Shown here piece after piece: positions 3,263 to 9,573 of a DNA stretch of 64,000 bases. The first letter of the stretch is position 1, and each line of letters opens with the position of its first letter. This stretch comes from Sulfurimonas sp. HSL3-2 (GTDB lineage: Bacteria > Campylobacterota > Campylobacteria > Campylobacterales > Sulfurimonadaceae). The stretch covers positions 186,001-250,000 of the forward strand of contig NZ_CP147917.1 in assembly GCF_039645965.1 (NCBI RefSeq), in the 5' to 3' direction. A model generated the notes under the pieces. It searched no databases. It saw nothing but the letters and a program-made list of their open reading frames with translations, and had not been told where the DNA came from. The translations under genes were made by a program, and so were the position numbers.

Positions 3263-3706
3263 ATGATGGAATTGAAGATTACAGATGGAGAGATGGGTGT
3301 ACGTCCACCGGTTACAAAGCCCCATCCTGGGTTCCTTCATCAAGTTGGTGAAGAAAGATTTCGTAAGCTTGTAAGTGATCACTACGAACTTATAAGAAAC
3401 AGCGATATAGCGTTTTTATTTCCGGTAAACGATGAGGATGATTTTGAGCAGGCGAAAAAGAATGCTGCTGATTTCTTGATTCAGATATGCGGCGGTCCTG
3501 ATTATTTCAACCAACACCGCGGTGAGCCTAGAATGGTAGGTCGTCATGCACCTTTTCGTATTGATGAACATGCAAGAAGAAGATGGTTGGAGTTTTATGC
3601 AGAGCTTCTTCCAAAACTCGAAGATGAGGGGATAAGCCCTGAGTATATCAAATCGTTTTGGGATTATCTCGATATCTTCTCTATCTGGATGATAAACATC
3701 AAATGA
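3263..3706 (+). CDS. truncated haemoglobin-like globin
   Basis: 147 residues. The segment from GGPDYFNQHRGEPRMVGRHA onward matches group 2-type truncated haemoglobins, with H95 in RHAPFRI as the likely proximal haem ligand and W108 in RRRWLEF as the distal-side tryptophan. The N-terminal ~25 residues (GEMGVRPPVTKPHPG) extend beyond the usual fold. By family knowledge such globins bind O2 or NO and often help in nitrosative or low-oxygen stress; the exact ligand is not visible here. A second ATG at 3266 is equally possible as start. The gene stands alone between a GDPD gene and a convergent hisK-type gene. Confidence 0.78.
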   Translation: MMELKITDGEMGVRPPVTKPHPGFLHQVGEERFRKLVSDHYELIRNSDIAFLFPVNDEDDFEQAKKNAADFLIQICGGPDYFNQHRGEPRMVGRHAPFRIDEHARRRWLEFYAELLPKLEDEGISPEYIKSFWDYLDIFSIWMINIK

Positions 3707-4514: not shown

Positions 4515-4596
4515 TTATTCAAATCTCTTTTTTTTTAAAGTTTATCTTGGTATTATAGTACAAAATGTTATTATAAACATATTTTGGAGCAGTTTT

Positions 4597-5301
4597 ATGA
4601 CACAAGAAGAGTTGGATGCTTTGATGAGCGGAGATATGGATTCGGTCGATGATGAAGTATCTGAACTGGATGAATCTAACGAAATCGAAACAGATGAAGA
4701 AGTGGAAGAGTCACCGACAAAAGCAGAGTTAGAAGCGCGTAGAGTGCATCCTAATAAAATGGTACCCCCACCTCCATATGACGATAACAAAGTGGTACAC
4801 CAACTTGATGACGTTACAAAAGAGAGCGAAGAAAAAGCGACTCAGATCTTTGATATCGTAGAAAATATCAGTAACGACTTGATGGAGAAAGAGGAGAACA
4901 TAAACTCTTGTATCCAAGTAATCGAAGATAATATAAAACTGTTTACAAATCTAGCAGAAAAATTCCCGGATATCAAAGCTTTTCAAAAAGCGAAAGATGA
5001 TAATACTGAAGCGCTCTCAAGTGCTCAAGAGGTATTAGAGTCTATGCAGGGAAGCGGTGATGAACTTATGAATGTTATGGACATCATGCAGTATCAAGAT
5101 ATTCACCGTCAAAAAATCGAACGTGTCATCAATGTTATGCGTGCTCTTTCAAACTATATGAACGCACTTTTCGCAGGTAAAATAGATGATGAGAAGCGTG
5201 TAAGTTCTGCAGTTCACCTTCCCGGTGATCAGGGAACAGAGGATGTGGTCAATGCTGATGATATTGAAGCGTTACTTGCACAATTTGGCACAAACGGATA
5301 A
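4597..5301 (+). CDS. cheZ: CheY-P phosphatase CheZ (epsilonproteobacterial type)
   Basis: 234 residues from the ATG at 4597, which follows TTGGAG; an in-frame extension to 4495 would run into the divergent histidinol-phosphatase and is not credible. The segment DIMQYQDIHRQKIERVINVM matches the CheZ catalytic helix with its essential Asp and Gln. The C-terminus NADDIEALLAQFG resembles the CheY-P-tethering tail of E. coli CheZ. The N-terminus TQEELDALMSGD resembles the CheY-binding peptide of FliM. An acidic linker follows. The gene heads the same neighbour set as in C. jejuni (cheZ, U32 protease, purE, DUF3972). Confidence 0.85.
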   Translation: MTQEELDALMSGDMDSVDDEVSELDESNEIETDEEVEESPTKAELEARRVHPNKMVPPPPYDDNKVVHQLDDVTKESEEKATQIFDIVENISNDLMEKEENINSCIQVIEDNIKLFTNLAEKFPDIKAFQKAKDDNTEALSSAQEVLESMQGSGDELMNVMDIMQYQDIHRQKIERVINVMRALSNYMNALFAGKIDDEKRVSSAVHLPGDQGTEDVVNADDIEALLAQFGTNG

Positions 5302-5353: not shown

Positions 5354-6646
5354 ATGCAAAAAGTAGAATTACTTTCTCCGGCTGGAAACTTAGAAAAGCT
5401 TCGTATTGCCATTGATTTCGGTGCCGATGCCGTATACGGCGGTGTAAGCCATTTTTCACTTCGTATACGTTCTGGCAAAGAGTTTACGTTTGAGGATTTT
5501 AAAGAGGGGATAGAGTATGCCCACTCAAAAGGAAAAAAAGTCTATGCGACTATAAACGGCTTTCCGTTTAACTCTCAGCTTGAACTTTTAAAAAAACATA
5601 TACTAAAGATGGCGGAACTCGGTCCCGATGCCATTATCGTAGCGACGCCTGGAGTGCTGAAGCTATGTAATGAACTTGCACCGCATATCCCGCTTCATCT
5701 TTCGACTCAGGCAAACGTACTTAACGTCCTTGACGCAAAAGTCTACTATGATATGGGTGCGCGCCGTATCATTGCTGCTCGTGAGATATCTTTAAAAGAC
5801 CTGTGTGAGATAAAAAAAGAGCTTCCTGATCTGGAAGTAGAGGTGTTTGTCCACGGTTCTATGTGTTTTGCGTATAGCGGAAGATGTCTGATATCGACAT
5901 TGCAAAGCGGTCGTGTTCCAAACCGCGGAAGCTGTGCAAATGACTGTAGATTTCCGTATGAGCTCTACGCTGCAAATCCTGAGACGGGAACACTTTTCAG
6001 ACTTGAAGAGGATCCTGGCATCGGGACTTACATCATGAACTCAAAAGATCTGAATTTAGCTTCGCATATCAAAGAGATACTCGATAGCGGATGTGTGGAT
6101 TCACTAAAGATAGAGGGACGTACCAAGACTTCATACTATGCAGCGGTCACGGCGAAAGCCTACCGTATGGCGATAGATGACTACTATGCGGGCTGTTATG
6201 AACCGAGCAAGTATCAGTATGAGTTAGAGAGCATGCAAAACCGCGGATATACTGATGCTTATCTTGTAAGCCGTCCGTTTGAGAAACATGACGGTCAGAG
6301 TCTGGATTTTACGATGCAGATGGGAACACATCAGGTAAGCGGGATGGTCACACTAGAGGGCACGCACTTTATGTGTAAATATAAAACACTGCCAAATGAA
6401 GAGTTGGAGATCGTAGCTCCTCTTGATACAGTATTACACGACGTGGACAACGAGATAGGGACAATCTACCAAAGAGACGGCAGATGGTATATGAAGTTAA
6501 AAAAACTGGTTGCAGAGAATAAAAAAGTCTGGGATGAAGTCCATAGCGGAAACTTAAATCCTATAGAGCTGCCGACAATGCTTCCGTCGTATACTTTTTT
6601 AAGAATACCGGCAGACGGCGATATGGGCACTCACCCTAAAATTTAA
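5354..6646 (+). CDS. U32-family peptidase / TrhP-like tRNA hydroxylation protein
   Basis: 430 residues beginning LLSPAGNLEKL, with GADAVYGG near residue 27, typical of the U32 family. The family's cysteine-bearing core is present in FVHGSMCFAYSGRC and NRGSCANDCRFPYE. E. coli members YegQ (TrhP) and RlhA carry out tRNA and rRNA hydroxylation, so despite the older 'collagenase PrtC' label an RNA-modification role is more likely. Translation begins 52 bp after cheZ, with only a weak GAGAAG upstream of the ATG. Followed 23 bp later by purE. Confidence 0.85.
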   Translation: MQKVELLSPAGNLEKLRIAIDFGADAVYGGVSHFSLRIRSGKEFTFEDFKEGIEYAHSKGKKVYATINGFPFNSQLELLKKHILKMAELGPDAIIVATPGVLKLCNELAPHIPLHLSTQANVLNVLDAKVYYDMGARRIIAAREISLKDLCEIKKELPDLEVEVFVHGSMCFAYSGRCLISTLQSGRVPNRGSCANDCRFPYELYAANPETGTLFRLEEDPGIGTYIMNSKDLNLASHIKEILDSGCVDSLKIEGRTKTSYYAAVTAKAYRMAIDDYYAGCYEPSKYQYELESMQNRGYTDAYLVSRPFEKHDGQSLDFTMQMGTHQVSGMVTLEGTHFMCKYKTLPNEELEIVAPLDTVLHDVDNEIGTIYQRDGRWYMKLKKLVAENKKVWDEVHSGNLNPIELPTMLPSYTFLRIPADGDMGTHPKI

Positions 6647-8586: not shown

Positions 8587-9573
8587 TCACAGCAAAGCAA
8601 GCAGTTCTTCAAGAGGTCTTGTCTTTTTATGCTGCGTATCTAGTATTATCTGAGCCAATTCATTGGCATTGATGGGAACTGTTTTCTTGTCATTGTCCAG
8701 ACTGTTCTGCATCTCTTCAAGTAGTTTTTTCTTAAAATCTGCTACCAGTTTTTCTATCTTGTTCATATTCTCAGGAGAATCTCCAAGCTCTTTGATCAGC
8801 TTATCTTTATACTCTTGGGCCTGTTTCTCGATTTTTTCCGTATTGAGATCAGCTAAGAATTGTGCGGCACCTTTTGTGTGCAGGTCTTTTAAGAACTTCG
8901 ATACATCACTTGATTGCTCATTACTATTATCAGCCTGTAGTTTTTCTCCTTTATATGCAGCGTTAAAAGCATTCCAAAAAGCTGTGATGCTTGCTTTGGC
9001 TTCATCGGAGGTATACGCACCGTTTGTCGGATTTAAATGATTTTGCACCTGTGTACTTAAGTATTCATAATCCATCTTAACGGGGGTGTAGGGTTTGTTG
9101 TTTATTACGGAGTTCAGACGTGCAGTATCAAAGGTGAGTATCATAGCCGTCATCTTGTCTTTGTCACTGAGCGAGTTCATCGCACTTATATAGGCATCTT
9201 TGACATCTTGAGGCATATTTATTGGAACTGCCAGCATTCGTTTGGCCGCTCCGACCTCTGCCGTTCCGTCATTGTTGAAATCAAACTGCTGGTTGTCATG
9301 CATAAGAAGGTTGTATGCACCTTCGTTACTTAGAGAGTTTATATCGATCTTGTCTGCTAGACCCGAGTATTTTTGCAGAGTAGTCAGTTCAGCAGGTGAG
9401 AGGCTATGCAAAAACTCTTTGGCATTGGAAAGTTTTATATCTGCCTCTTGTGCTTTGTTGAAGATGACTTCAAACTTTTGGGCATAAGGAGCTTGGTACT
9501 CTTTACGTCCATTGGACAGCTGATAGTTTTGCATCGTTTGCAAGTAGTTTTGATAAGTCGTTCCCGTCTCCAT
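8587..9573 (-). CDS. unknown protein with a DxNxDG calcium-loop-like motif
   Basis: 328 residues, not recognised. It begins METGTTYQNYLQTMQNYQ, has no signal peptide or membrane segment, and is rich in Asn, Gln, Lys and Ala. QFDFNNDGTAEVG (about residues 96-108) resembles the calcium loop of EF-hand or dockerin repeats, but only one copy is present. The C-terminal third is strongly helical and charged (KIEKLVADFKKKLLEEMQ). The start is well supported: AAAGGAG lies 6 nt before the ATG. It is convergent with DUF89 and divergent from glyQ, so it forms its own transcription unit. Confidence 0.6.
   Translation of the reverse strand: METGTTYQNYLQTMQNYQLSNGRKEYQAPYAQKFEVIFNKAQEADIKLSNAKEFLHSLSPAELTTLQKYSGLADKIDINSLSNEGAYNLLMHDNQQFDFNNDGTAEVGAAKRMLAVPINMPQDVKDAYISAMNSLSDKDKMTAMILTFDTARLNSVINNKPYTPVKMDYEYLSTQVQNHLNPTNGAYTSDEAKASITAFWNAFNAAYKGEKLQADNSNEQSSDVSKFLKDLHTKGAAQFLADLNTEKIEKQAQEYKDKLIKELGDSPENMNKIEKLVADFKKKLLEEMQNSLDNDKKTVPINANELAQIILDTQHKKTRPLEELLALL

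Follow-up and report, generated by a model that had tools for sequence, protein, structure and literature searches.

The window analysed here is a 64,000-nucleotide stretch of contig NZ_CP147917.1 from Sulfurimonas sp. HSL3-2, and it carries a cheZ gene followed by trhP (Table 1). The cheZ reading frame opens with ATG, and a GGAG at 4586-4589 lies 8-11 bases upstream. The NCBIfam profile NF041271 (Phos_CheZ) aligns residues 1-232 with profile positions 1-241 of 242. Its score of 215 bits is below the curated cut-off of 350, which just 27 matches exceed among the 327 of 397 Campylobacterota genomes that match. The Pfam match is weak (21.5 against a cut-off of 30.7). The protein has near relatives in Sulfurimonas, in Sulfuricurvum and in metagenome-assembled genomes related to them. 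The product is an F3-class CheZ of Sulfurimonas-like Campylobacterota and an ordinary orthologue of the CheZ of the phylum.

Table 1. Features of the cheZ locus, in coordinates of the window
Feature	Position	Strand	Description	Evidence
cheZ	4597..5301	+	234 aa, Campylobacterota F3-type CheY-P phosphatase	NF041271, E 1.1e-63; PF04344, E 2.4e-4
N-terminal FliM-like peptide	4597..4632	+	Residues 1-12 (MTQEELDALMSG)	PSSM; conservation; predicted helix 3-11
Hypervariable acidic disordered arm	4633..4782	+	Residues 13-62	Top-residue frequency 0.35 (11-62); pLDDT <50 at 12-64
Long helical hairpin	4783..5172	+	Residues 63-192	AlphaFold2 helices 63-122 and 127-192; block pLDDT 80-96 over 71-190
Active site	5098..5112	+	D168 to Q172 (QDIHRQ)	Aligns with E. 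coli CheZ QDLTGQ
C-terminal CheY-docking-type helix	5251..5289	+	Residues 219-231 (NADDIEALLAQFG)	PSSM; AlphaFold2 helix 220-231; colinear with E. coli tail
trhP	5354..6646	+	U32 peptidase family; downstream neighbour of cheZ, conserved in the phylum	PF01136, E 1.8e-77

The gene order cheZ, trhP (U32), purE is common to the window and Campylobacter jejuni, and the cheZ-trhP order is described as constant across F3-class Campylobacterota (PMC9321776). A bacterial-like globin gene (PF01152, E 2.1e-20; 3263-3706, plus strand) lies two genes upstream of cheZ. Elsewhere in the window, a 328-residue protein encoded on the minus strand at 8587-9573 has no match above the curated cut-offs of Pfam or NCBIfam. 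A 41-kb C. jejuni sequence filed as a plasmid (pCJ41K-01, NZ_CP048757.1) holds glnA, cheZ, the U32 gene and purE. These genes look chromosomal, and the entry may be an extra-chromosomal copy or a matter of assembly.

In an AlphaFold2 model built from 56 sequences, CheZ is a helical hairpin flanked by two disordered arms, each of which ends in a short helix of the FliM/CheZ-tail type. The first tip helix spans residues 3-11 (block pLDDT 70) and is followed by disorder from 12 to 64; the other spans residues 220-231 (block pLDDT 59). Once dimerised, the hairpin would form a four-helix bundle. The DxxxQ pair is intact and lies within the long second helix. By hhalign, residues 165-231 fall on residues 140-213 of E. 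coli CheZ at low probability (E 0.11), which makes the active site and tail colinear in the two proteins. Structure comparison of the bare hairpin brought up generic helical proteins, with Z up to 11.2 among the matches listed, and is uninformative as to the fold. No solved CheZ stands among those listed matches, Foldseek returned no match below 0.001 for the bare hairpin, and a sequence-profile search run to E 1 did not bring up a solved CheZ. In E. coli the CheZ tail is the established docking site for CheY-P in catalysis. Tail docking of CheY-P in CheZ catalysis is also described in PMC7750401. By analogy, the C-terminal helix is probably a docking site of this classical kind, through which CheY-P is brought to the active site.

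The opposite end of the protein resembles FliM. CheZ begins MTQEELDALMSGD (residues 1-13; residues 1-10 are MTQEELDALM), while FliM of the same genome begins MADILSQEEIDALL, given also as MADILSQEEIDALLDVV, and E. coli FliM begins MGDSILSQAEIDALLNGD. Of the 31 FliM N-termini fetched from Campylobacterota, 30 went into a position-specific scoring matrix (PSSM); the remaining one, beginning MADILTQEEIDALL, was missed by the capture pattern. Against a background of 22,373 10-mers from the window, the N-terminal peptide scores 18.5 bits. The best background stretch reaches 12.0 bits and none of the 22,373 scores as high, which excludes a chance resemblance. The second-best stretch of CheZ is the C-terminal helix (9.6 bits), a score equalled or passed by 2 of the 22,373 background stretches. 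The original prediction had likened the N-terminus to the FliM peptide and the C-terminus to the CheZ tail, and both likenesses hold. The N-terminal match is not exact in kind, as CheZ has L and M at positions mostly taken by I and L in FliM. Three places in the 2.24-Mb genome match a degenerate DNA pattern for [QE]xE[LIVMF]DA[LF]. One is CheZ from residue 3, one is FliM near its N-terminus, and one is an internal stretch of an unrelated 405-residue protein, presumably WaaA/KdtA-like.

The same scoring was applied to CheZ across the phylum, with 54 representatives from 52 genera and 12 families that include the genome of the window and leave out one genome (G231). Their heads score 10.1 to 21.8 bits (median 18.5). 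The head is the top-scoring stretch of the protein in 53 of the 54, and 52 heads exceed the best background stretch. Six CheZ proteins from outside the phylum (E. coli, Cupriavidus, Burkholderia, Halomonas, Aeromonas and Photobacterium) served as an outgroup. The head peptide is absent from all six, with peaks of -0.8 to 6.9 bits over the first 70 residues, and the tail is the best FliM-like stretch in each. In E. coli CheZ the tail scores 14.4 bits and the head has no match. Because that tail is an established docking site, the choice of the outgroup tails by the PSSM acts as a positive control.

N-termini were read for the fetched genomes, a subset of the 327 with CheZ. This gave 151 CheZ frames, 150 of them distinct (L154 duplicates L001); phmmer found no CheZ frame in five loci (L002, L123 and L155-L157). 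Two frames cut at the left end (L096 and L097) were excluded from the head count. The peptide is present in 148 of the 149 left-complete proteins, spanning 12 families. The search pattern finds 146, and two more were recovered by eye (L045, MTQEELDALM; L138, MTQEELETLM), leaving L153 alone without it. The tail pattern misses 2 of 150 (L113 and L126), which by eye carry ADIEALINSL and DNIEALLESF. Conservation of the N-terminal motif, on which the original prediction had hung, is thus borne out, and C. jejuni CheZ (MTQEELDALMNGD) is included. Read from these sequences, the peptide is the usual N-terminus of CheZ in Campylobacterota and a general feature of the protein; the idea that it is special to the Sulfurimonas genome studied here was rejected on the same count.

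The degree of conservation differs sharply along the protein. Across the 54 representatives the most frequent residue at each position has a mean frequency of 0.89 over residues 1-10. This mean falls to 0.35 in the arm (11-62), and is 0.57 in the bundle and 0.71 in the tail helix. Residue 1 is Met by construction, and residues 2-10 average 0.88. The N-terminal peptide is therefore more conserved than the catalytic bundle, despite the hypervariable 50 or so residues that follow it.

In one family, f7, similar peptides also occur inside the arm. This family appears to be Arcobacteraceae-like from its type of CheZ and the account in PMC9321776. Its CheZ arms are 123-202 residues long and carry SNDDIDKLLAETN, SNDDIDDLLKDID, STDDIDELLASID and similar motifs. 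In the 12 genus representatives there are 20 inner core motifs, where shuffling of the composition predicts 1.34 and none of 2000 shuffles gave as many; 4 of the 12 lack any by the core pattern. Sixteen further genomes of the family, related to the first 12, hold 36 against 2.0 expected. The arms of other genera contain none in 37; 5 of the 42 such arms were dropped when the bundle anchor failed (13 with an earlier anchor). By the core pattern an arm has at most three inner copies, and looser look-alikes are present. Many of the arms at L139-L150, L228-L230 and L232-L244 show one to three inner peptides like those of FliM or the CheZ tail, an apparent, putative array of CheY-docking sites. Arcobacter is reported to have five CheY homologues (PMC9321776). 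Some Arcobacteraceae-like genomes also encode a short second CheZ-like protein of about 120-165 residues (L151, L152 and L253; L153 and L254), with both peptides in some and the tail alone in others.

The head and the active site are not always lost together. An additional 29 rows were chosen for weak or family f7 CheZ. Among these, L231 has an altered head (MPQEEFDTLM) and a catalytic Gln changed to Lys; L247 and L248 have an eroded head, and L249-L252 and L254 have none. The genomes of genus g26 show an intact FliM (MADILSQEEIDALL) in 4 of 4 examined, alongside a decaying CheZ. By alignment, L245 has lost both Asp and Gln and L246 has lost Asp alone (g26, G280 and G065). The two proteins retain their heads (NQEELEALM, MNQEELDALM) together with a tail that resembles the docking helix, and could be CheZs for binding only. 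In L247 and L248, also beside an intact FliM, the head has eroded to MRKEERAALM and the frame read contains no tail. The sequences suggest that the head peptide can outlive catalysis, with the reservation that this is one lineage, in which the head may simply lag behind in decay.

Genus g55 shows a more complete loss. Here 3 of 3 genomes without a FliM match have just a short CheZ relic lacking head, active site and tail. The CheZ-related relics at L123, L250 and L251 are about 125-130 residues long and have neither the active site nor the peptides; L123 has an additional U32-family-like frame resembling trhP. Head loss also occurs outside genomes without FliM, because genome G221 still has a diverged FliM alongside a CheZ relic without the head (L252).

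Of the receiver loci fetched, L195 encodes the genome's best CheY, with 52.6% identity to the E. coli protein across 116 residues. The E. coli residues D57, W58, T87, K92, Y106, K109, F111 and K119 are kept in it, among them most of the FliM-binding positions. Position 91 is Gly, with Lys at 92. The FliM-binding residues listed in PMC9321776 are W58, K91, K119 and the Y106-T84 pair. The two CheYs agree at 15 of 33 residues in the alpha4-beta5-alpha5 region (90-122), which is thus no more conserved than the whole protein (62 of 123). Covariation of the peptide with FliM is not visible either, since in genus g32 CheZ has EELNELI while FliM keeps EEIDALL. A protein adjoining FliM, which we take to be FliY-like from its position, begins MEEFIKLFERETV and lacks a FliM-like motif.

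We propose that the head helix mimics FliM and serves the phosphatase as an accessory bait that attracts CheY-P and is not needed for catalysis, and we put the probability of this reading at roughly 0.55. A deletion of residues 1-39 of CheZ in H. pylori G27 leaves phosphatase and biofilm function intact, and the function of this N-terminal region is called unknown there (PMC11237671, 2024). Since phosphatase function survives the deletion, the N-terminal peptide is not needed for catalysis, and its role would instead be placed in capture, retention or competition with FliM. The head helix would bind the same groove of CheY-P as FliM. Within a polar CheZ cluster it could raise the local concentration of CheY-P and retain it near the phosphatase, and it would compete with FliM for CheY-P at the same pole. 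In the Arcobacteraceae-like lineages the bait appears to have been extended into an array. Such a reading is favoured by the PSSM match, near-invariance at the protein level with varied codons, conservation above that of the bundle with a variable arm behind, the retained CheY residues, the motif in FliM and its absence from the FliY-like neighbour, the inner copies, the proteins L245 and L246, and the published role of EIDALL and FliM-N (PMC9126983). Against it stand the H. pylori deletion, Gly91 of CheY, the unexceptional alpha4-beta5-alpha5 region, the lack of covariation, the L and M in place of I and L, and the eroded heads of L247 and L248.

The peptide may have other explanations. It sits at the start codon, where DNA-level constraints act, so a translation-start signal or a chance resemblance without any function in the protein might be proposed, and the Gln and Glu codons, mostly CAA and GAA, would suit a start signal. 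However, the 114 proteins with exact TQEELDAL use 85 distinct 30-nt encodings, and the codons for Thr, Leu, Asp and Ala vary widely. The codon variation therefore points to selection on the protein and against a signal in the DNA. Together with the PSSM background and the occurrence of similar peptides inside long arms, it leaves a start signal or chance strongly disfavoured and very improbable. The original prediction envisaged that each arm of the dimer might capture two CheY-P molecules or compete with FliM. The likeness of the peptide to FliM, the conservation, the tip helices, the CheY residues and the extra copies support this in part. An arm may hold extra CheY-P or compete with FliM; the stronger version, in which both sites feed the active site, is weakened. 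The two tips are alike in sequence and predicted helix, as a second catalytic feeder handing CheY-P to the active site would be, but the phosphatase function of H. pylori CheZ without its N-terminal region makes this improbable (PMC11237671).

The peptide could also bind a receiver domain other than that of CheY. Candidates are the C-terminal receiver of CheA, that of CheV and ChePep, which contains a receiver domain, and such binding would anchor CheZ, either within the array or at the cell pole. There are 38 receiver-domain matches in the genome, and an N-terminal region dispensable for catalysis suits an anchor. The localisation motif of CheZ, however, reportedly lies in its central domain (Lertsethtakarn et al., 2015), and the resemblance to FliM points first to CheY. 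ChePep is important for the polar localisation and function of H. pylori CheZ (PMC11237671). On balance we consider an anchor of this kind unlikely, if the most serious of the alternatives. Still less probable is a non-receiver partner common to CheZ and FliM, or packing of the peptide on the CheZ bundle. CheO of C. jejuni pulls down with CheA, CheZ, FliM and FliY and not with CheY, but is described as found mainly in host-associated genera plus Hydrogenimonas and Sulfuricurvum (PMC9665402), while the peptide occurs throughout the phylum. C. jejuni FliY binds CheO, yet no such peptide is present in the FliY-like protein of the Sulfurimonas genome. On these two grounds CheO was rejected as the common partner. 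As for packing, the model joins the peptide to the bundle only through a stretch with pLDDT below 50.

Returning to the FliM mimic, a wider form of the proposal is more tentative. The head of Campylobacterota CheZ, joined in Arcobacteraceae-like lineages by the array of up to three inner copies, might form a multivalent polar trap for CheY-P that competes with the switch independently of the phosphatase. If this is true, the phosphatase cluster would set the CheY-P level felt by FliM through binding as well as hydrolysis, and the CheZs of L245 and L246 would be pure competitors. A FliM-like docking peptide would be a new reading of the region that PMC11237671 leaves without a function, and we found no description of a FliM-like peptide in CheZ in the open-access literature searched. 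Naming the region in this way makes the gap one that simple experiments on binding and competition can address. If the mimicry is real, titration by a look-alike of the target would join the known ways to end the CheY-P signal, with a bearing on how a phosphatase and a switch share one messenger at the same cell pole.

E. coli CheZ (NP_416395.1) has the colinear DxxxQ and C-terminal QDQVDDLLDSLG helix, as in Sulfurimonas CheZ, but lacks the N-terminal FliM-like peptide, with a best score of -0.7 bits in its first 70 residues. C. jejuni CheZ of the Cj0700 type (WP_002852254.1) shares the head, active site, tail and downstream U32-purE genes. The CheZs above the NF041271 cut-off, which we take to come from Helicobacter (HP0170 type), begin MTQEELDALM or MTQEELDALI among the matches listed with a complete head. 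Sulfurimonas CheZ differs from the H. pylori and C. jejuni proteins in arm length and sequence only. EIDALL is the CheY-P-binding motif of FliM and FliY, and FliM-N is described as a site of high affinity where CheY-P is gathered ahead of its binding to the FliM middle domain (PMC9126983). Both PMC9126983 and PMC7355467 cite PDB 1F4V for the CheY-FliM-N complex. The CheZ head has an EIDALL-like N-terminal sequence and a short predicted helix (3-11) before a flexible linker. It shares with FliM-N the residue pattern of a short helix at the N-terminus, then an acidic stretch; unlike FliM-N, it sits on a phosphatase and not on the motor, and has L/M for the usual I/L of FliM. It would be the same CheY-P-gathering device, placed on the phosphatase. 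In Bacillus subtilis the N-terminus of FliY has a CheY-binding motif (PMC8809382), and FliY has phosphatase activity in some species (PMC9126983). B. subtilis FliY is a CheC-type protein and a motor component unrelated to CheZ. A CheY phosphatase with its own CheY-binding peptide would nonetheless share the design logic of Campylobacterota CheZ.
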